This document shows positions 51,072-64,000 of a stretch of 64,000 nucleotides of DNA, piece by piece. Origin of the DNA: Microvirga sp. Mcv34 (GTDB lineage: Bacteria > Pseudomonadota > Alphaproteobacteria > Rhizobiales > Beijerinckiaceae). Under the pieces are notes generated by a model. The model saw nothing but the letters and a program-made list of their open reading frames with translations, was not told where the DNA came from and did not search any database. The position numbers were made by a program, and so were the translations under genes. Each line of letters starts with the position of its first letter. The stretch's first letter is position 1. The stretch lies in contig NZ_JALJRK010000005.1 in assembly GCF_024519725.1 (NCBI RefSeq), positions 1 to 64,000 of the forward strand, read 5' to 3'.

Positions 51072-52145
51072 CTATGGCGTGATCGCCACCTTCAGCACGC
51101 CGTCGCGCTGATGGGCGAACAGGTCATAGGCCTCCTCGATCTGGTCGAGCTTGAAGCGATGCGTCACGAGAGGACGCGTGTCGACACGCCCCGAGGCAAT
51201 CGCGCCGATCAGCCGCCGCATCCGTTCCTTGCCGCCCGGGCAGAGTGTCGTCCGGATCGTATGATCGCCCAACCCGGCCAGGAAACCGTCGAGCGGAATC
51301 CTGAGATCGCCCGAATAGACCCCGAGCGACGACAGGGTGCCGCCGGGACGGAGCACCCGGAGCGCCGCCTCGAAGGTCTGCTGGCGCCCGAGCGCCTCGA
51401 TGGAGACGTCAACGCCGCGCCCGTCGGTGAGGCGCCTGATCTCCTCGACCGGGTCCGCTTTCGTGAAATCCACCACGTGATCCGCCCCCATGCGGCGCGA
51501 CATCTCGATCCGCTCTGGGACGCTCTCGACTGCGATGATGGTGGTGGCGCCCATCAGCTTGGCCCCGGCCGTGGCGCAGAGACCGATGGGGCCCTGGGCG
51601 AACACGGCCACCGTGTCGCCGATGCGGATGCGCCCGCTCTCCGCTCCCGAGAAGCCGGTCGACATGATGTCCGGGCACATGAGCACCTGCTCGTCCGTCA
51701 GCCCGTCGGGGACCGGGGCGAGATTCGCCATGGCGTCGGGCACCCGCACGTATTCGGCCTGGCACCCGTCGATGGTGTTGCCGAACTTCCAGCCGCCTAT
51801 GGGTTTCCAGCCATGTTTCGTGCCGGCTCCGTCCTGCGAGTGGCAACCGCACAGGCAGGCCTCGCTGTGCCCGCTCGGCGTGATGGCGCCGGCGATGACC
51901 CGCTGGCCCTCGCGATAGCCCTGCACGGCCGAGCCGAGCTTCTCGATGATTCCGACCGGCTCGTGACCGATGGTGAGCCCACGGGCGACCGGATACTCCC
52001 CCTTGAGGATATGGATGTCCGTGCCGCAGATCGTCGTGGTGGTGATGCGCACGAGCGCATCGAGCGGCCCAACATCGGGGATCGGCTTCTCGTCGAGAAC
52101 GATGCGTCCAGGCTCGATGAAAATGGCAGCCTTCATCTTGGGCAT
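51072..52145 (-). CDS. Zinc-dependent alcohol dehydrogenase, second copy of a different subgroup
   Basis: 357 residues. Catalytic zinc region CGTDIHILKGEYPVARGLTIGHEPVG; Rossmann segment VAVFAQGPIGLCATAGAKL; the extra loop with CLCGCHSQDGAGTKHGW is characteristic of the class III/NAD-dependent alcohol dehydrogenases related to isopropanol or threonine dehydrogenases. GGGAG precedes the ATG at 52145. Not obviously under the FNR-type promoter of its neighbour, since it lies upstream of that box. Confidence 0.9.
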   Translation of the reverse strand: MPKMKAAIFIEPGRIVLDEKPIPDVGPLDALVRITTTTICGTDIHILKGEYPVARGLTIGHEPVGIIEKLGSAVQGYREGQRVIAGAITPSGHSEACLCGCHSQDGAGTKHGWKPIGGWKFGNTIDGCQAEYVRVPDAMANLAPVPDGLTDEQVLMCPDIMSTGFSGAESGRIRIGDTVAVFAQGPIGLCATAGAKLMGATTIIAVESVPERIEMSRRMGADHVVDFTKADPVEEIRRLTDGRGVDVSIEALGRQQTFEAALRVLRPGGTLSSLGVYSGDLRIPLDGFLAGLGDHTIRTTLCPGGKERMRRLIGAIASGRVDTRPLVTHRFKLDQIEEAYDLFAHQRDGVLKVAITP

Positions 52146-52390
52146 GTCCAGCTCTCCCAAGGCTGATTTGCCCCTATCATAGCACAGGCGAGCGCCGTGT
52201 CTGCCAACCTGAGCCGGACTAGCCCCGATCACGCATGAGCCGAAGATGTCCCGTCGCCGTGCCTATGACCTGTGCCATCATGAAGGCCGAGAACGGCCTG
52301 GAAGAGGTCCAGGAACCTGCCGACACCATGAATGGCGGCGACGGTCTGCCTGGGGATGGCGACGACCGCCACCCCCATGCTTTGCCGGTG

Positions 52391-55087: not shown

Positions 55088-57091
55088 TCAGAGACTTCTC
55101 AGTCCCTTGAACAGAGCTGCGAATTCCGAGGAAGCTCTATAGAACACCGGCGGTTCGCCGACGGGCGCGTCGACTCTGACCTCCTGCCCTCCCGCGAATG
55201 CCCTGCCCGACCAGACATGGACCCACGCCGCGCCCTCCGGAAGATAGGTGCTCCACTCCGATTTGCCCGCTTGCGAGACGGGTGCGACGAGAAGGTCGGA
55301 ACCGTAGAGATAGGAATCCTGGATCGCGTAGGTGTGCAGATCCTCCTCGAAATGGAGGAATAAGGGGCGCTGCACCGGCCAGCCCCGCGTCGAGGCCTCC
55401 GCCACGAGCGTTTTCAGATAGGGCACGAGATGGACGTAGATCCGTGTCATCCTGGCGAAATGCGCGAGCACCTGCGGATCCTGGTCGATCTGCAGGTTGT
55501 CGCGCGGACGGTTACCTTCATGGGTGCGCATGACGGGCGTGAACGCTCCCATCTCGGCCCACCTCATGATGAGCTCCGCCGTGCGCACATTGCCGAAGAG
55601 GCTCGTATACCCGCCGATATCCGAGTGATGATAGGCGTTGCCGAGAAGTCCCGACGACAGAGCACCCGACATCACGGTCACGAGCCCGTCGTGACGGCTG
55701 AAATCGACCGACTGATCCCCGCCCCACAATAGAGGGCAATGCTTCTGGACCCCCGTGAATCCGGCCCGCATGAAGAACAGAGCCTCACCGGTCTTGCCGC
55801 GGTTCGCCACGGCGCGCGCATTCACTTCGGCCCAGAGCGTCGGCCATGCATTGTGCATCAGCTTGGCATCGATTCCGTTGGCGAGCGTCACATCGATCGG
55901 CAGATACTCTCCGAAATCGGCCATCCATCCGGACAGACCGAAATCGAGCATGTTCTGTCCGATCACCCGCTCGGCGAACCAAGCGGCTGCGTCCGGATTG
56001 GTAAAGTCGACGACGCCGCAATCGAACTCGCCGAAATCCACGAGCGCCGTTTGTCCGCTCTCGTTCTTGGCGAAGTAGCCCGCAGCCTCCGCTTCCGGAA
56101 ACAGTGAGCCATCCACGGCGATATAGGGGTTGACGTAGCCGAGGAAGCGGATGCCGCGCTGTTCCAGCTCAGCAATACGCTCGCGCAAGCCGGGATAGCG
56201 CTCGTCGTTGGCTTTCCAGTCCCAGAACAGGCGCGCGCCGAATGAGGTATGGCGCAAGCCGACCCAATCCTCGCACCAGAGCCCCGATACCTTCGTGCCC
56301 GCCTTGACGATGACATCGAGCCGCTCGAAGGAATTGGCTCCATCCTTCAGGCCGATGATCGCCCCGTTATAAATCCATTCGGGCAGCGGCGGCTGACGGC
56401 CGAAGCGCTCCGACATGGCTTCGACGAGATCGATGAAGGTGGGACGCGCCGTGAGTTCGATCCGCTCCGGAACGGCCCAGATCTCGATTTCGTGAAAATC
56501 TCCGCGGCGGAAATCGAAGGCCGAATAGGCGGTCGTCTCCACGTGCAACGCATAGCGCCGGGACGAGAGATAGGTCGGCTGCGGGTAGTTCGTGTTCCAG
56601 TAATCGCCGCCCGACTTGCCGGTGACGTCGGCCTTGAACGTGATTTCCGTGGTCTTGTCGCGGCCGACTCCAGGCTCCGACGTCCAGAGCGGGAAGCGGC
56701 GCCCGCGCATGTCGAGATACGACATCTGCTCGCCGCCGCCCCACACATGCTCGCCCTCTTGCGCGTGGATGCGGATCCAGATCCGGTTGATGGTGGCATC
56801 CTCGGACCGGAAGGCGATGGCGCCGTTGCTGTCGTCGCCCGACATCTGGAGGATCATCCTGGCCGGCTGTCCCGGAGCGGCGGAAAAGGCAATGTCGGAC
56901 CCGGACACGACAGCATGGGCGAGCGGCGTACGCTCGATGACATAATCCTCGATGTCGAAATTACCGCGATACATGTCCATCCGGGCGTCACCCTGCCCGA
57001 CGAAGAGACACGGCGCATCGACACGATGCCTCAGGATCAACCTTCCATCGAGGACGAGATCGAAGCCGCCGTCGGTCGTCAAGATTGGCAT
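55088..57091 (-). CDS. yihQ: Sulfoquinovosidase (GH31, YihQ type)
   Basis: Hydrolyses sulfoquinovosyl glycerol and related plant sulfolipid products to sulfoquinovose. 667 residues. Nucleophile Asp392 (ADFGEYLP) and acid/base Asp459 (WGGDQSVDF) are 67 residues apart, as in E. coli YihQ (D405, D472). The sulfonate pocket can be read as K249 (GLKDG), E274 (WCEDWVG), R287 and W290 (GARLFW), and Y495 (HSDIGGY): the K-E-R-W-Y variant known for this enzyme group. C-terminal motifs MRTHEGNRPRDN and RPLFLHFEEDLHTYA match YihQ closely. Last visible gene of the sulfo-ED operon. Confidence 0.93.
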   Translation of the reverse strand: MPILTTDGGFDLVLDGRLILRHRVDAPCLFVGQGDARMDMYRGNFDIEDYVIERTPLAHAVVSGSDIAFSAAPGQPARMILQMSGDDSNGAIAFRSEDATINRIWIRIHAQEGEHVWGGGEQMSYLDMRGRRFPLWTSEPGVGRDKTTEITFKADVTGKSGGDYWNTNYPQPTYLSSRRYALHVETTAYSAFDFRRGDFHEIEIWAVPERIELTARPTFIDLVEAMSERFGRQPPLPEWIYNGAIIGLKDGANSFERLDVIVKAGTKVSGLWCEDWVGLRHTSFGARLFWDWKANDERYPGLRERIAELEQRGIRFLGYVNPYIAVDGSLFPEAEAAGYFAKNESGQTALVDFGEFDCGVVDFTNPDAAAWFAERVIGQNMLDFGLSGWMADFGEYLPIDVTLANGIDAKLMHNAWPTLWAEVNARAVANRGKTGEALFFMRAGFTGVQKHCPLLWGGDQSVDFSRHDGLVTVMSGALSSGLLGNAYHHSDIGGYTSLFGNVRTAELIMRWAEMGAFTPVMRTHEGNRPRDNLQIDQDPQVLAHFARMTRIYVHLVPYLKTLVAEASTRGWPVQRPLFLHFEEDLHTYAIQDSYLYGSDLLVAPVSQAGKSEWSTYLPEGAAWVHVWSGRAFAGGQEVRVDAPVGEPPVFYRASSEFAALFKGLRSL

Positions 57092-57100
57092 GGGACTCTC

Positions 57101-57877
<777 letters not shown>

Positions 57878-58759
57878 TTAAACGGATGGGTCGAAACGGG
57901 TTTCAGGCAATCCCGGCACATCGACCGGCATGAAAAACAGACTTCCAGAATGGGGGAAGGCTTCGAGCTCGTCCTCCGGACGACCAGTGCGGGCAGAGGT
58001 TACGTAAAGGGTTTTCCGATCCTCGCCGCCGAAGCACACCATGGTGGGGCATCGGGCCGGAACGGGATACTCGGCCAGCAACTGGCCATCCGGCGCGTAG
58101 CGTTGGATCCGCCCGCCCTCGAACAAGGCCGTCCAGTAGCAGCCCTCCGCATCGACCGCGGCACCGTCGGGACGGCCACGGTCGGTTTCGGTTGGTTGAA
58201 GGCGCGCGAACAAGGCCTTGTCCGTGGCCTCGCCGGTGGCGGGATCGTAGGCGTATCGCCATACGGTGAAGGTCGGCGTGTCGGAATGGTAGAGCATGCG
58301 CCCGTCGGGCGAAAAGGCGACGCCGTTCGACGTGAGCAGGTCACCTGCGAGCGCCGCGAGACCGCGCCGGTCGTAGCGGTAGAGATGCGCCCTGCCGCCG
58401 TCCTTCGGCTCGTCGATGGTGCCGGCGAGGAACCGCCCCGCCGGATCGACGCGGCCATCGTTGAAGCGGCTGGTTCGCTGATCTTCGGGATTGTCGGCCA
58501 GCTTCGTCTCGCGGTTTCCTTGGGAATCCAGCAGCCACAAGCCGGAACGGAAACCTGCGATGAAGCCTCCACCCCTCCGGAGGCCGATACAGCCGATCTC
58601 CTCGGGCATCGTCACGACACGATGCTCACCCGTCGTCGGTCGGAAGCGATGAAGCGCCCGGCCCTTGATGTCAACGAAGAACAGCGCCTGCTCGTGGGAA
58701 TCCCAGATTGGGCATTCACCCAATTCGGCGCGGATATCGAGCGCGACGGTCAGCGGCAT
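57878..58759 (-). CDS. SMP-30/gluconolactonase family, probable sulfogluconolactonase
   Basis: Opens the sulfogluconolactone made by the SDR. 293 residues, beta-propeller. Metal ligands can be recognised: E15 in AELGECPIWD, Asn in TSNGVAFSPDG, Asp in GRPDGAAVDAEG. The ATG at 58759 starts the family's normal N-terminus; the frame extends upstream into the aldolase gene without support. Gap of 11 bp to the aldolase. Confidence 0.8.
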   Translation of the reverse strand: MPLTVALDIRAELGECPIWDSHEQALFFVDIKGRALHRFRPTTGEHRVVTMPEEIGCIGLRRGGGFIAGFRSGLWLLDSQGNRETKLADNPEDQRTSRFNDGRVDPAGRFLAGTIDEPKDGGRAHLYRYDRRGLAALAGDLLTSNGVAFSPDGRMLYHSDTPTFTVWRYAYDPATGEATDKALFARLQPTETDRGRPDGAAVDAEGCYWTALFEGGRIQRYAPDGQLLAEYPVPARCPTMVCFGGEDRKTLYVTSARTGRPEDELEAFPHSGSLFFMPVDVPGLPETRFDPSV

Positions 58760-58770
58760 CTCGTCGAACC

Positions 58771-59577
58771 TCAATAGGCAGCCGTCGGAGCCCCCGATGG
58801 GGCGGGCTGATCGCGCAAGGCGCTCAGCCACTCGGAGGCGCGACTCGTCATCATGGCGATGTCGGACGCCACCGCCACGTAGCTGTAGCCGAAATCGATG
58901 AAGCGCCGCACCATGTCCGGGTTGGGGCCCACGATGCCGACCGGCTTGCCCGCATCACGGGCCATCTTTGCCGCCTTCTCGATCAGCGCCTGAACATCGG
59001 GATGGGTGATATTGCCGATATGCCCCAAGGCAGCCGCGAGATCGCCGGGCCCGACGAACAAGGCGTCGATGCCAGGAACGGCGGCAATCTCCGGCAGCCG
59101 CTCGATGGCCTCGGGTGTCTCCAGCTGGACGATCACCGCCACCTGATCATTGGCACGTTTGAGATAATCCGCCGCGCGACCGAACAGCGATCCGCGATGT
59201 ACGGCGGCGACGCCGCGCACACCCTCGGGCGGATATTTCGCGAACGAGACCGCCTGACGGGCCTCCTCGGCGGTCTGAACGAACGGAAGCATGATCGTCT
59301 GCGCCCCGGCATCGAGCACGCGCTTCACGAGCACCTGATCGTTCCAGGCGAGACGCACGACCGCGTCGGCGGGCGTGCAGCCGATGGCGCGCAGGATATG
59401 GGCGAGGTCCGACACCTCGATCGGCACATGCTCCATGTCCACGACGAGAAAGTCGAAGCCGCTATAGCCCATCGCCTCGGCGCTCGCGGGAGCGGCGGCC
59501 ATGAGCCAGGTGCCCAGCGGCGGACGCGGCCCCGCACCCTTCAGCCAGCCCTTGAAGCGGTTCTCGATATCGATCAT
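58771..59577 (-). CDS. HpcH/HpaI class II aldolase, probable KDSG aldolase
   Basis: Would split 2-dehydro-3,6-dideoxy-6-sulfogluconate into pyruvate and sulfolactaldehyde. 268 residues, TIM barrel. Catalytic His in VVDMEHVPIE; metal ligands Glu in QLETPEA and Asp in VGPGDLAAALG. The family includes many pyruvate aldolases; the assignment to the sulfo-ED pathway comes from the operon. Starts 9 bp after the dehydratase stop. Confidence 0.8.
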   Translation of the reverse strand: MIDIENRFKGWLKGAGPRPPLGTWLMAAAPASAEAMGYSGFDFLVVDMEHVPIEVSDLAHILRAIGCTPADAVVRLAWNDQVLVKRVLDAGAQTIMLPFVQTAEEARQAVSFAKYPPEGVRGVAAVHRGSLFGRAADYLKRANDQVAVIVQLETPEAIERLPEIAAVPGIDALFVGPGDLAAALGHIGNITHPDVQALIEKAAKMARDAGKPVGIVGPNPDMVRRFIDFGYSYVAVASDIAMMTSRASEWLSALRDQPAPSGAPTAAY

Positions 59578-59586
59578 GACGGGCCC

Positions 59587-61320
59587 CTAGAAGATGGACG
59601 GCTCGACCACCAGGCCGGGCGCGCTGAGAAAATCGAAGTCGCAGCCCTGGTCGGCCTGCGAGACATGGCGCTGGTAGAGCGCCGCGAAGGAACGGCCATA
59701 GACGTGTGCGGTCGGCTTCCACGCGGCGCGGCGGCGCTCCAGCTCGGCATCGTCCACCTTCATGTCGAGGCGCCCGGCCGCGACGTCGAGCTCGATGAGG
59801 TCGCCCGTCCTGAGCAGCCCCAGGGGACCGCCCACGGCCGCTTCCGGGGCAACGTGCAGGATGCAGGTGCCGTAATGGGTGCCGCTCATGCGCCCGTCGC
59901 AGATGCGCACCATGTCGCGCACGCCTTGGCGAAGAAGCTTCTTCGGAATCGGCAGATTGCCCCATTCCGGCATGCCGGGCGCCCCGACGGGGCCCGCATT
60001 GCGCAGCACGAGAACCGTGTCTTCCGTGATGTCGAGATCGGGATCGTCGATCATCCGGTTCATCTCGGCGGGACTGTCGAAAACGAGCGCCGGGCCGACA
60101 TGCTTGAGGAATTTTGGGTTCGCCGCCGAGGACTTCATGACCGCGCCGTTCGGGGCGAGGTTGCCGCGCAGGAGCGCCAGCGTCTTGCCGCGCGAGAGCG
60201 GGACGACCGGGTTGTCCTCCCCGCGGATGACGTCGTCGTTCCAGCACTCGGCCCCGGCGATGTTCTCACCGAGCGTCCTGCCATTCACCGTCATGGCTCC
60301 CCGGTCGAGATGGCTCTCCAGCTTCCTGAGCAGGGCGAGCAATCCGCCGGCGAAGTAGAAGTCCTCCATCAGGTATTCGCCGGACGGGAAGAGGTTCGCG
60401 CAGACAGGCACCCTCCCGGCCATGTCGGACATGTCGTCGAGGGTCAGCTCGATTCCGGCGCGGCGCGCCATGGCGATCAGGTGCACGGCGGCGTTGGTAG
60501 AGCCGCCCAGCCCCATGTAGGTCACGAGACCGTTCCGGAAGCTCCTCGCGTCAAGGAACCGCGACGGCTTCCAATCTTCCCAGATCATCTCGACGATGCG
60601 CTCACCGCAGAGGGAGGCCATGCGCGGATGACTGCTGTCGGCGGCGGGGATCGAGGACGCGCCCGGAAGCGTCAGGCCCATGGCGTCCACGATGGACGTC
60701 ATGGTGGATGCCGTTCCCATGGTGTTGCAGGTGCCGATGGAGCGGGTCATCCGGCTTTCCAGATCGACCCAGTCTGCTTGCGTGATGTTGCCGGCCCGAA
60801 GCTCGTCCCAGTACTTCTTGGTGTGGGTGCCCGCGCCGGTCTTCTGGCCGCGCCACTGCCCGTTCGACATCGGCCCCGCTGGGCAATAGAGGGCCGGGAT
60901 ATCCATGCTGATCGCCCCCATGAGAAGCCCGGGCGTGGACTTGTCGCACCCGCCCAGCAGCACGGCCCCGTCGACGGGATGCGAGCGCAGGAGTTCCTCC
61001 ACCTCCATGGCGAGGAAGTTGCGGTAGAGCATGGTGGTAGGCTTCACCATCACCTCGCCAACCGAGAGCGCCGGCAGCTCCACCGGGTAGCCGCCCGCCT
61101 GCCAGACGCCGCGCTTCACGGCCTCGGCACGGTCGCGCAGATGCGAATGGCACGGGCTCAGATCGCTCCAGGTGTTGATGATGGCCACGACGGGCTTGCC
61201 GAGGAATTCCTCCCGCCGCAGGCCCATCTGTTGCGTGCGCTGGCGATGCGCGAAGCCGCGCATGTCGTCCGAGGCGAACCAGCGCTGGCTCCGCAACTCT
61301 CCGAGAGATCGGCGTGTCAT
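59587..61320 (-). CDS. IlvD/Edd-family dehydratase, probable 6-sulfogluconate dehydratase
   Basis: Removes water from 6-deoxy-6-sulfogluconate to give KDSG. 577 residues. Iron-sulfur cysteines are visible in LSPCHSH, GGCDKSTPG and SIGTCNTMGTAS. The C-terminal domain has MVRICDGRMSGTHYGTCILHVAPEAAVGG. Closest to the sugar-acid branch of the family (gluconate/arabinonate type) rather than branched-chain IlvD. First of the five clustered pathway genes; 104 bp separate it from the second GH31 gene. Confidence 0.84.
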   Translation of the reverse strand: MTRRSLGELRSQRWFASDDMRGFAHRQRTQQMGLRREEFLGKPVVAIINTWSDLSPCHSHLRDRAEAVKRGVWQAGGYPVELPALSVGEVMVKPTTMLYRNFLAMEVEELLRSHPVDGAVLLGGCDKSTPGLLMGAISMDIPALYCPAGPMSNGQWRGQKTGAGTHTKKYWDELRAGNITQADWVDLESRMTRSIGTCNTMGTASTMTSIVDAMGLTLPGASSIPAADSSHPRMASLCGERIVEMIWEDWKPSRFLDARSFRNGLVTYMGLGGSTNAAVHLIAMARRAGIELTLDDMSDMAGRVPVCANLFPSGEYLMEDFYFAGGLLALLRKLESHLDRGAMTVNGRTLGENIAGAECWNDDVIRGEDNPVVPLSRGKTLALLRGNLAPNGAVMKSSAANPKFLKHVGPALVFDSPAEMNRMIDDPDLDITEDTVLVLRNAGPVGAPGMPEWGNLPIPKKLLRQGVRDMVRICDGRMSGTHYGTCILHVAPEAAVGGPLGLLRTGDLIELDVAAGRLDMKVDDAELERRRAAWKPTAHVYGRSFAALYQRHVSQADQGCDFDFLSAPGLVVEPSIF

Positions 61321-61424: not shown

Positions 61425-63803
61425 TCAATCCTGGAACGCAGGTGCGCCCTGCGCGACCTTGATGGCCCCCGCCGGAATCTCGATCCGGATCGGCCCGTCA
61501 ATGGCGACAGTGCGAACCGAAATCGCGTCGAACGCGGGCCGGTAGGAGCCGGTCGTGTCGAGCGACAGGACCAGGTCCTTACCGTTTTTCCGGAGCCCGA
61601 AGCGAAGCTGCAGCCGGCCTTCACCCTGCCACTCGGACGTGTCGCCGTTGTCCTCGTAGAGATCCGCGTGGGCTTCATCCCGCGGAGCCCCGAAGACGAT
61701 CAGCTCGCGCTGCGTGTCGCTGCTCGGATCGATCGCATCCGTCTGACGGGTCAGCGGAACGATGGCACCGCAGCGGACGAAAACCGGCAGGCGGCCGAGA
61801 GGGGCCGCGACCGTGACAGTCCGCCCGCCGTCGAAATGGCGGCCGTCATGGAAATCGAACCAGCCGCCCGCATGCTCCGGCAGATAGACCTGCCGGTCCG
61901 TGGCCGCTTCTTCAAGAATGGGCGCCACCAGAATGTCCGGTCCCAGCATGAAGCTGTCTTGCACATCCAGGGCCGAACGGTCTTCGGGGAAGGCGTAGAA
62001 CAGCGGCCGCACGACCGGCTCGTTCTCGCGCGAGGCGCGCCACATCTGCGTGTAGAGATAAGGCATCAGCCGGTAGCGCAGCTTGATCACATCCCGAACC
62101 TGGGGAATGACGCTCTCATGCATCCAGGGAAGATTGACGACGCCGTCGTCCTTCCAGGAATTCATGACCATGCGCGGCCAGAGCGCGCAGAACTCCACGA
62201 AGCGGCAGAACAGCTCCGCATTCGGGCTGGGCCCATGAAACCCGCCCACATCATGCCCGATGTTGAACATGCCGGAGAGGCTCATGTTGAGCCCCTGGGT
62301 CAGATTGAACCGGAGAGTCTTCCACGCGGTCTCATTGTCGCCGGACCAGGTCTGCGCGTAGCGCCACAGGCCGGCCGCTCCCCCGCGCGTGATCGCGTAG
62401 GGCCGCTTTCCGGGCGTATGGGCCGCCTGCGCCTCGTAGGAAAGCTTCGTCATGAGAAGCGGCTGCGCGGCCCGCGCCAGGACCTGCGGGAACGGGCGAC
62501 CGTCTCCGTCGCACACCGCATCCTCATCCCAGATCTCGTATTCGTTGTTGTCGTTCCAGATCGTCAAGACACCGTAATCCAGCAGGGCGGATTGAATGCC
62601 GTTCCGCCACCAGGTGCGGCCATCGGGATTGGTGAAGTCGACGTGGAACCCCAGACCGTCCCAGAACTGAGCCACGGCCGGCTGGCCGGTCGCACCATCC
62701 TTGACAAGGATACCCTGCTCCACCGCCTCGTCGAGCCGAGGATGATCGTCCAGGAGGCAGGGCTTGAGATTGGTGACCGGCTGCATGCCGGCTTCCTTCA
62801 GCCGGCGCATGGTGCCTGCCGGATCGGGAAACTTGTCGCGGTTCCAGTTGAAGGCATAGCGGCGATGGCCGATGGATGTATAGCCGGAGCCGAAATGGAA
62901 GCTGTCGCAAGGGATCTGGTGATGGCGGCACTTCTCGATAAAGTCGGTGATCCGCGCATCGGCGTCGGGCGCGTCCGCGATGGTCATCGACGTGGTGGCG
63001 AAACCGAGAGACCATTTCGGCGCGAAGGCCTGGCCGCCCGTGAGCCAGGAGAACCGCCGCACCACATCCGGAACGCTGGGGCCCGCCAGCACATAGAAGT
63101 CGAGGTCGCCGTCCTGCGCGCTGTAGGACCGGAACGGCCCGTGGTAATTGTCGATCGTGCAGCCGAGATCCATCTCGCCGACGGCGAGATTGTCGTAGAA
63201 GATTCCGTGCGCACCCGTTGGCCCGTCGACCATGAGGAACGGGATCATCTTGTAGAGCGGATCGCTGAGCTCCGCATCGAAACCGCAGGGATCGACGGCG
63301 TCGATCTTGAAGCGGCGGCCCGTGTGATCGAGAGGTCCCGCCTTGTCGCCCACGCCGTAATGGCGCTCGTGATCATCGCGCGCCATGACGTGTTGAAGTG
63401 CGCCGGTCTTGCGCGACGCGAAATAGGCCTGCGTTCGCCGGTCCTGCAGGAAGGGACGATTTTCACCGCTCCGGTGCCAGGCAATTCCGAAGGGAGACAA
63501 GGTGACGATTGCCGTCAGACCTTCGGAGGCGAGCACGACGGTGCCATTCTGTTCCGTGACGGACGCGTCCGGGCAGGCAAACCCTTCCACCGAATCCCTC
63601 CATCTGCCCTCATAGGAAGGCTCGACCCCATTGGGCGCGATGCTCCAGCCTCGGTCGAGGCGGTAGCCGCCGTCACGCTTCAGAACGACACGACCAATAT
63701 CGTGCTCGAGGATCCCGACGCGCAGCTGCGTGTTCCAGCCCAATTCGAACACGGCCCAGATTCCATCGCGGCCACTGTAGCGGCCTTCCGTCAACGCCTT
63801 CAT
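61425..63803 (-). CDS. GH31 alpha-glycosidase, not a sulfoquinovosidase
   Basis: 792 residues. Nucleophile Asp418 in TIWNDNNEYE and acid/base Asp489 in WSGDNET; the GHDVGGF region is present. The sulfonate-binding residues of YihQ are absent, so the substrate is probably an ordinary alpha-glucoside or similar. GAGGAG lies 12-17 bases before the ATG at 63803. It sits between the ABC ATPase (22 bp) and the sulfo-ED genes (104 bp gap holding an imperfect hairpin at about 61394-61417). Possible role: removal of another sugar from sulfolipid-derived glycosides; that is inference. Confidence 0.88.
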   Translation of the reverse strand: MKALTEGRYSGRDGIWAVFELGWNTQLRVGILEHDIGRVVLKRDGGYRLDRGWSIAPNGVEPSYEGRWRDSVEGFACPDASVTEQNGTVVLASEGLTAIVTLSPFGIAWHRSGENRPFLQDRRTQAYFASRKTGALQHVMARDDHERHYGVGDKAGPLDHTGRRFKIDAVDPCGFDAELSDPLYKMIPFLMVDGPTGAHGIFYDNLAVGEMDLGCTIDNYHGPFRSYSAQDGDLDFYVLAGPSVPDVVRRFSWLTGGQAFAPKWSLGFATTSMTIADAPDADARITDFIEKCRHHQIPCDSFHFGSGYTSIGHRRYAFNWNRDKFPDPAGTMRRLKEAGMQPVTNLKPCLLDDHPRLDEAVEQGILVKDGATGQPAVAQFWDGLGFHVDFTNPDGRTWWRNGIQSALLDYGVLTIWNDNNEYEIWDEDAVCDGDGRPFPQVLARAAQPLLMTKLSYEAQAAHTPGKRPYAITRGGAAGLWRYAQTWSGDNETAWKTLRFNLTQGLNMSLSGMFNIGHDVGGFHGPSPNAELFCRFVEFCALWPRMVMNSWKDDGVVNLPWMHESVIPQVRDVIKLRYRLMPYLYTQMWRASRENEPVVRPLFYAFPEDRSALDVQDSFMLGPDILVAPILEEAATDRQVYLPEHAGGWFDFHDGRHFDGGRTVTVAAPLGRLPVFVRCGAIVPLTRQTDAIDPSSDTQRELIVFGAPRDEAHADLYEDNGDTSEWQGEGRLQLRFGLRKNGKDLVLSLDTTGSYRPAFDAISVRTVAIDGPIRIEIPAGAIKVAQGAPAFQD

Positions 63804-63825: not shown

Positions 63826-64000
63826 TCAGCGAACCCGGATCGCGTTTCCGCCCGCGTCGAACAGATGAAGCGCATCGCGCTTGAGGCGCAGTCCGATCCT
63901 CTGGCCGCGGTCGTATCCGGCCTGACCATCCTTGCGCACGGTAATCTGCGGCAAGCCGGGAGCCGACCCGTACAGGTACGTCTCGCCCCCAAGCTGCTCC
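63826..64000 (-). CDS. ABC transporter ATP-binding protein, UgpC/MalK type (3' end only)
   Basis: Only the last 58 codons and the stop are in the window; the gene continues past base 64000. The visible part is the end of the TOBE/OB domain: GQRIGLRLKRDALHLFDAGGNAIR, the usual MalK/UgpC close (LFD..G). It implies a carbohydrate importer immediately upstream of the sulfo-ED operon, the probable sulfoquinovose or sulfoquinovosyl glycerol importer. Confidence 0.85.
   Translation of the reverse strand, partial: EQLGGETYLYGSAPGLPQITVRKDGQAGYDRGQRIGLRLKRDALHLFDAGGNAIRVR

Follow-up and report, generated by a model that had tools for sequence, protein, structure and literature searches.

The analysed window is a stretch of 64,000 nucleotides from Microvirga sp. 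Mcv34, located on contig C289 (179,042 bp) of a 6.18-Mb genome in 333 contigs. Near its end, five open reading frames (ORFs) without internal stop codons follow each other on the minus strand from 55088 to 61320. They encode a YihQ-type glycoside hydrolase of family GH31, predicted to be a sulfoquinovosidase (SQase), a short-chain dehydrogenase/reductase (SDR), an SMP-30 family lactonase, an HpcH/HpaI aldolase and an IlvD/Edd dehydratase. The intergenic gaps from the SQase to the dehydratase gene, taken from the ORF coordinates, are 9, 12, 11 and 9 bp. This agrees with a preliminary description of the window, which had listed five same-strand genes spaced by 9-12 bp, and its assignment of the five families was borne out by Pfam, where all the proteins matched far above the cut-off. 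The start of the lactonase was placed at an inner ATG that leaves an 11-bp gap; the ORF as called mechanically is longer and reaches into the aldolase gene, and the Pfam score of the lactonase is from this longer ORF.

The operon as first described was correct for these five genes but overlooked a second GH31 gene in the same window, here called GH31b. Its reading frame is intact and it lies on the same strand, 104 bp upstream of the dehydratase gene. It is preceded by the genes of an ATP-binding cassette (ABC) transporter, followed further out by lacI on the opposite strand, and most of these genes lie beyond the window (Table 1).

Table 1. Positions of the core genes, GH31b and the front-end genes on contig C289
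Feature	Position	Strand	Product and support
GH31 sulfoquinovosidase, YihQ type (SQase), predicted	55088-57091	minus	667 aa; PF01055 147 bits
SDR, predicted sulfoquinovose 1-dehydrogenase	57101-57865	minus	254 aa; PF13561 193 bits
SMP-30/gluconolactonase family, predicted sulfogluconolactone lactonase	57878-58759	minus	293 aa; PF08450 285 bits
HpcH/HpaI aldolase, predicted 2-keto-3,6-dideoxy-6-sulfogluconate (KDSG) aldolase	58771-59577	minus	268 aa; PF03328 149 bits; syntenic in sulfo-ED loci
IlvD/Edd dehydratase, predicted sulfogluconate dehydratase	59587-61320	minus	577 aa; PF00920 340 bits
Second GH31 (GH31b), predicted alpha-hexuronosidase	61425-63803	minus	792 aa; PF01055 262 bits (longer ORF)
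ABC ATPase, 3' end in window	63826-64000, on to contig position 64902	minus	ORF; NCBIfam/Pfam
Two ABC permeases	contig 64919-65968, 65976-67013	minus	NCBIfam/Pfam families
ABC binding protein	contig 67074-68354	minus	NCBIfam/Pfam families
Divergent LacI gene	contig ~68708-69724	plus	NCBIfam/Pfam families

The core genes of a predicted sulfo-Entner-Doudoroff pathway

The SQase, lactonase, dehydratase and aldolase, together with a sulfoquinovose (SQ) dehydrogenase, are the same enzymes as in the sulfo-Entner-Doudoroff (sulfo-ED) pathway of Pseudomonas putida and Rhizobium leguminosarum. The best match of the SQase in the PDB was 5ohy (1156 bits, 487 of 658 residues or 74% identical), which is labelled there as alpha-glucosidase yihQ and which we take, with 5ohs, to be the SQase of Agrobacterium tumefaciens. 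The NCBIfam model PRK10426 was matched with 962 bits at a cut-off of 553. In the alignment, the protein retains K249, E274, R287, W290 and Y495 as well as D392 and D459, covering residues of both recognition and catalysis. The KERWY motif presumably comprises the residues by which an SQase recognises SQ.

For the SDR, the best PDB match was the sulfoquinovose 1-dehydrogenase 9gwu with 312 bits, followed by the next entry with 225. The protein is identical to the SQ dehydrogenase of P. putida (PpSQDH) at 152 of 253 positions (60%). In PpSQDH, D45 binds NAD, the catalytic tetrad consists of N119, S147, Y160 and K164, and SQ is contacted by D99, R101, R152, R154 (via water) and Q198 (PMC12133307). 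All ten of these positions were checked and are conserved in the SDR of the window, and the C-terminal Q260 of PpSQDH is replaced by N254. A second SDR gene with an in-frame TAG, whose product is 49% identical to the SQ dehydrogenase, was observed on another contig (G000:C262:17622-18371, L105).

The dehydratase is 80-84% identical to its counterparts in loci of Rhizobium, Ensifer and Agrobacterium with the same gene order, whereas the other members of the IlvD/Edd family in the genome reach at most 61%. It belongs to the families PF00920/PF24877 and not to PF13378 or PF02746, and the PF00920 dehydratase, the lactonase and the PF03328 aldolase are all encoded in one operon. This bears on whether the core could serve sulfofucose, or a non-sulfonated sugar acid pathway such as that of L-arabinose or D-galactose, instead of SQ. 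The sulfofucolytic ED pathway of Paracoccus wurundjeri shares the SDR, the SMP-30 lactonase, the HpcH/HpaI aldolase and the ABC transporter with the window; unlike the window, it has a dehydratase of the enolase superfamily (PF13378/PF02746), and no sulfofucosidase is reported for it (PMC12421959). A sulfofucose pathway was excluded by the dehydratase family. The arabinose and galactose pathways are favoured by NCBIfam names alone. The dehydratase was labelled L-arabinonate dehydratase with 929.5 bits at a cut-off of 882, and the best model for the SDR was a D-xylose 1-dehydrogenase, which stayed below its cut-off (328 of 400). The first of these labels is probably a spill-over of names, yet it counts against a core for SQ. 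The residues and the synteny contradict these pathways, as the SQase is present, the arginines R152 and R154 on the sulfonate side are kept in the SDR and the dehydratase resembles those of the rhizobial sulfo-ED loci far more than the other copies of the genome. A core for a substrate other than SQ is highly improbable.

The closest relatives of the SDR were found in Microvirga (83-93% identity), in 21 loci among the best 80 of 134 relatives. The order of the five genes is kept in all 21, and the arrangement is therefore not due to chance.

In contrast to the known sulfo-ED systems, the operon of the window contains neither a sulfolactaldehyde dehydrogenase (SLADH) nor a TauE protein, and both appear to be encoded elsewhere. 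The preliminary description had placed the dehydrogenase, the exporter and the regulator outside the window. Candidates were now found on contigs C93 and C274, together with the LacI gene past the window end. Among 17 aldehyde dehydrogenase (ALDH) matches in the genome, the one on the 3.3-kb contig C93 was nearest to the ALDHs encoded within sulfo-ED operons. With ALDHs encoded behind the SQase it shares 77-88% identity in Rhizobiaceae and Microvirga and 69% in Devosia; its identity to ALDHs encoded upstream on the opposite strand in six metagenome loci is 54-58%. Its best solved match was 8c54 with 880 bits (next 672), which we take to be RlGabD, the R. leguminosarum enzyme. In a tree from which one short row (L130) was dropped and in which one very distant row (L131) was kept, it nests among the ALDHs encoded within operons of Rhizobium and Microvirga, with support of 100/90 for the clade of 23 rows and of 97/96 for the Microvirga clade. 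Not every sulfo-ED locus carries such a gene, since among the 17 Microvirga loci that have the usual front end, 4 showed a full-length ALDH behind the SQase in the stretch examined and 2 a partial match. The C93 protein (PF00171, GabD/SlaB type) is thus a candidate SLADH encoded in trans. A TauE-family protein on contig C274 is 80% identical to the TauE that follows the SQase in M. arabica.

The core had been interpreted as sulfo-ED in the preliminary description. This prediction is well supported by the residues of the SQase and the SDR, the dehydratase family, the synteny with Rhizobium and Microvirga and the candidate SLADH elsewhere in the genome, an orthologue of the in-operon enzymes.

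About 3 kb beyond the SQase gene, an ORF on the minus strand (51072-52232) was named by eye as alcohol dehydrogenase-like. A histidine kinase/LuxR-like pair on the opposite strand separates it from the SQase gene, and its membership in the operon is unsupported.

A probably exchanged front end

The window differs from the sulfo-ED loci of Rhizobium and most Microvirga in its front end, i.e. the importer and the glycosidase. The usual ABC importer of these genera is not found beside the core genes and another ABC system stands in its place; importers were not counted here as a defining feature of sulfo-ED. In 17 of the 21 Microvirga loci, the five genes lie behind the usual ABC system, which is about 50/30/30% identical to that of the window. 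The arrangement of the window, with its own module first, was found in 4 of the 21, namely in Microvirga sp. VF16, where the fused operon sits on plasmid pMVF16-2, M. aerophila, M. brassicacearum and M. calopogonii. The usual binding protein, represented by that of M. arsenatis and chosen by its position between the ATPase and the permease, gave no close match when used as a query against the genome of the window strain (best 32%).

The sister of the window in a tree of the SQase, SDR and dehydratase is M. sesbaniae (support 100/97), which has the usual front end and in whose genome GH31b was not found at E 1e-60. On this tree, the module-first arrangement requires at least five gains or losses when four loci of Jiella and Aurantimonas are included. 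M. lupini Lut6, M. rosea and M. arabica have the module standing alone and, separately, a usual operon.

The distribution of the module was followed in an order-wide sample of 397 genomes, which gave 39 GH31b matches other than that of the window strain, with neighbouring stretches of up to 20 kb. Seven genomes of the sample carry the transporter and GH31b as a module on its own, and none of them (0/7) has an SQase. This suggests that the original substrate of the module was not SQ. The ABC binding protein had only weak matches in the PDB, the best with 57 bits, and its ligand could not be read from structures.

In the four Jiella/Aurantimonas loci (L038, L041, L049 and L054), a related module is joined to the SDR and the SQase, and in three of them also to the lactonase. 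Their GH31b forms a separate branch of the tree, adjoining modules without SQ genes, in a region to which a long-branch warning applies. An aldose-epimerase-like gene was seen in the operon of L038 and a TauE gene alongside L041. Within the 20-kb stretches, neither the sulfogluconate dehydratase nor the aldolase was matched in any of the four loci, which may have a different downstream route or have these genes elsewhere. A divergent SQase-like gene, 52% identical, was noted in a further locus (L219, G311:C1:2907000-2926000); about 6 kb from it lies a 27% match to an enolase-superfamily sugar-acid dehydratase, possibly of another sulfosugar route.

GH31b and the hexuronate genes near some of its relatives

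GH31b scored below the cut-offs of the NCBIfam alpha-glucosidase/alpha-xylosidase models (280 of 800 and 247 of 606 bits) and of the YihQ model (162 of 553 bits). Among solved structures, most of the nearest matches were alpha-glucosidases; entry 6jr6 is presumably FjDex31A. Across 33 relatives, the nucleophile region WNDNNE (WSDNNE in three) and the acid/base region GDN are kept. An aspartate in the -1 subsite that is common to three neutral-sugar GH31 references is replaced by glycine or serine in all 33, and by glycine in the window. The histidine of the R-x-H motif is an asparagine in 24 of the 33, including the window, and is retained in 9. The subsite comparison rests on the three neutral-sugar references, and the alignment of the SQase with GH31b is shifted near the SQ-binding strand. 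An arginine close to this site also occurs in two of the three references and was left out of the argument. The tree of GH31b comprised these 33 rows, without M. aerophila (broken frame), a duplicate J. mangrovi and 19 loci fetched later, and the tree program flagged the long branches by which the Jiella group is connected to the remainder. The ratio of nonsynonymous to synonymous substitutions (dN/dS) was 0.06-0.11 for GH31b and 0.05-0.09 for the SQase, SDR, aldolase and dehydratase, the ratios being rough for some pairs with dS up to 1.7-2.0.

GH31b could be a second SQase, or act on an SQ-containing disaccharide, in an operon for sulfolipid variants only. It is encoded in one operon with the SQase in Microvirga and, on the separate branch, in Jiella/Aurantimonas, as would be expected in this case. 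Its score with the YihQ model and the missing SQase in all seven stand-alone genomes led us to reject a second SQase, and uxuA was found inside two of the fused operons. We consider such a role improbable. A glucosyl-SQ lipid was also considered as the substrate, and nothing usable was among the matches listed in a literature search for such lipids.

Relatives of GH31b are found in the hexuronate operons (UxaC, UxuA, UxuB) of Salinarimonas and other Hyphomicrobiales. In the order-wide sample, UxuA, UxuB or UxaC was encoded near GH31b in 19 of the 39 relatives, from 4 genera of 2 families, with 13 of the 19 in one genus. The fullest form, found in 11 of these 19, has on one strand genes for a permease of the tripartite ATP-independent periplasmic (TRAP) type, GH31b, UxuB, UxaC and Eda, and on the other strand those for a TRAP binding protein, a GH2 protein and UxuA. 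In one such locus, L173, UxaC and UxuA scored above their family cut-offs; for UxuB, the GH2 protein and the GntR protein, the best matches were fructuronate reductase, beta-glucuronidase and the Uxu regulator, each below cut-off.

In both Salinarimonas loci (2/2), the order is binding protein, permease, permease, ATPase, GH31b, UxaC, UxuA and UxuB, with a transporter of the same family and gene order as in the window. The window has the sulfo-ED genes in place of the hexuronate genes. In Microvirga, uxuA directly follows GH31b in the stand-alone modules (3/3), and in two fused operons, those of VF16 and M. calopogonii, it lies between GH31b and the sulfo-ED dehydratase. For a control, we searched for UxuA in the loci of the best 80 of 134 relatives and obtained a match in 3, all of them fused. 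In the window strain itself, UxaC, a UxuB-like protein (518.8 bits, cut-off 603) and UxuA are encoded together on contig C274.

From the observed gene content, families, residues, synteny and trees, we consider it likely that the window carries a sulfoglycolytic ED operon with an exchanged front end, in which GH31b is an alpha-hexuronosidase.

Several observations weigh against this reading. SLADHs share a proposed anion-binding arginine pair with succinate-semialdehyde dehydrogenases, as stated in PMC10599462, and the residues cannot prove an activity on sulfolactaldehyde. For 20 of the 39 GH31b relatives, no hexuronate gene was found in the stretch fetched, some of the stretches being short. 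All 19 hexuronate-linked loci of the sample have TRAP transporter genes, whereas the window has an ABC system. Apart from Microvirga and Salinarimonas, a whole ABC transporter accompanies GH31b in 12 loci (L164, L165, L168, L169, L170, L178, L183, L204, L038, L041, L049 and L054), and a hexuronate gene was found in none of them, so that it is these two genera that connect the ABC module with hexuronate. No uxuA was found in the operon of the window, nor in that of M. brassicacearum, and the uxuA on C274 is cut off by the contig end. In M. aerophila, UxuA is a remnant of 58 residues (L208, 8219-8392) and GH31b (L194) has an in-frame TGA. In two Salinarimonas genomes and Boseaceae BT-24-1, which were chosen for sulfo-ED, the module and the sulfo-ED genes are at separate sites, and an SQase-like gene of 52-53% identity was located elsewhere in three TRAP-type genomes (G093, G311 and G397).

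Given the TGA and the UxuA remnant of M. aerophila, some fused operons seem to be losing the glucuronate arm by decay; the TGA itself could be a decay in the fused operon or a sequencing error. Three stand-alone modules have other genes in place of hexuronate genes, namely a GntR gene, directly behind GH31b in L164 and L204 and at a distance of about 5 kb in L165, and a DapA-like gene in L164 and L165.

The missing hexuronate genes in 20 of 39 relatives and in the 12 ABC-linked loci would also suit an ordinary sulfo-ED operon whose transporter was replaced by chance, with GH31b as an alpha-glucosidase carried along as a passenger in a module for sugars in general and playing no part in the use of acidic ones. 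Pfam and NCBIfam place GH31b nearest to the alpha-glucosidase/alpha-xylosidase models, in line with the nearest structures. GH31b is, however, far below the cut-offs of all three models, the aspartate of the neutral-sugar enzymes is glycine or serine in all 33 relatives compared, and the linkage to hexuronate genes recurs in the four sampled genera, Salinarimonas and Microvirga. Its dN/dS is also close to that of its neighbours. A plain alpha-glucosidase was set aside on the aspartate and R-x-H residues, less firmly than the second SQase, and we regard the passenger explanation as unlikely. In the open-licence literature, no report of a GH31 glucuronidase was found among the matches listed, which is a weak absence.

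Proposed pathway and biological meaning

In the proposed flow, all reactions and the substrates of the transporter and of GH31b are predicted from sequence. The ABC transporter would import acidic alpha-glycosides, e.g. sulfoquinovosyl glycerol, and the YihQ-type SQase would release SQ. SQ would then be oxidised by the NAD+-dependent SDR, the SMP-30 protein would open the ring of the resulting sulfogluconolactone and the IlvD/Edd enzyme would dehydrate sulfogluconate. The aldolase is expected to yield pyruvate and sulfolactaldehyde, the latter being oxidised to sulfolactate by the ALDH encoded on C93, and the TauE-family protein encoded on C274 may export the sulfolactate. The transporter, GH31b and the LacI regulator would derive from a separate uptake module. 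GH31b most likely cleaves an alpha-linked hexuronoside, probably a glucuronide, and the sugar would enter the UxaC-UxuB-UxuA route on C274.

According to two reports, the plant lipid glucuronosyl diacylglycerol (GlcADG) is proposed to be made by SQD2, the enzyme of sulfoquinovosyl diacylglycerol (SQDG), and accumulates under phosphate starvation (PMC8124801, PMC11771548). We tentatively propose, as a possibility that we hold to be rather doubtful, that the operon serves both lipids: SQDG by the SQase and the sulfo-ED enzymes and GlcADG by GH31b as a GH31 alpha-glucuronosidase, with one importer for both glyceryl head groups and a front end repeatedly joined to sulfo-ED. A soil bacterium that meets the head groups of SQDG and GlcADG could share one importer for them, and our guess is that this was the reason for the union of module and operon.

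No paper on SQ in Microvirga was found in the open-licence literature, and sulfo-ED genes are present in many species of this genus. The front end of the window points to a possible new specificity in GH31, and SQDG of plants may share a route with GlcADG, the lipid of phosphate starvation.

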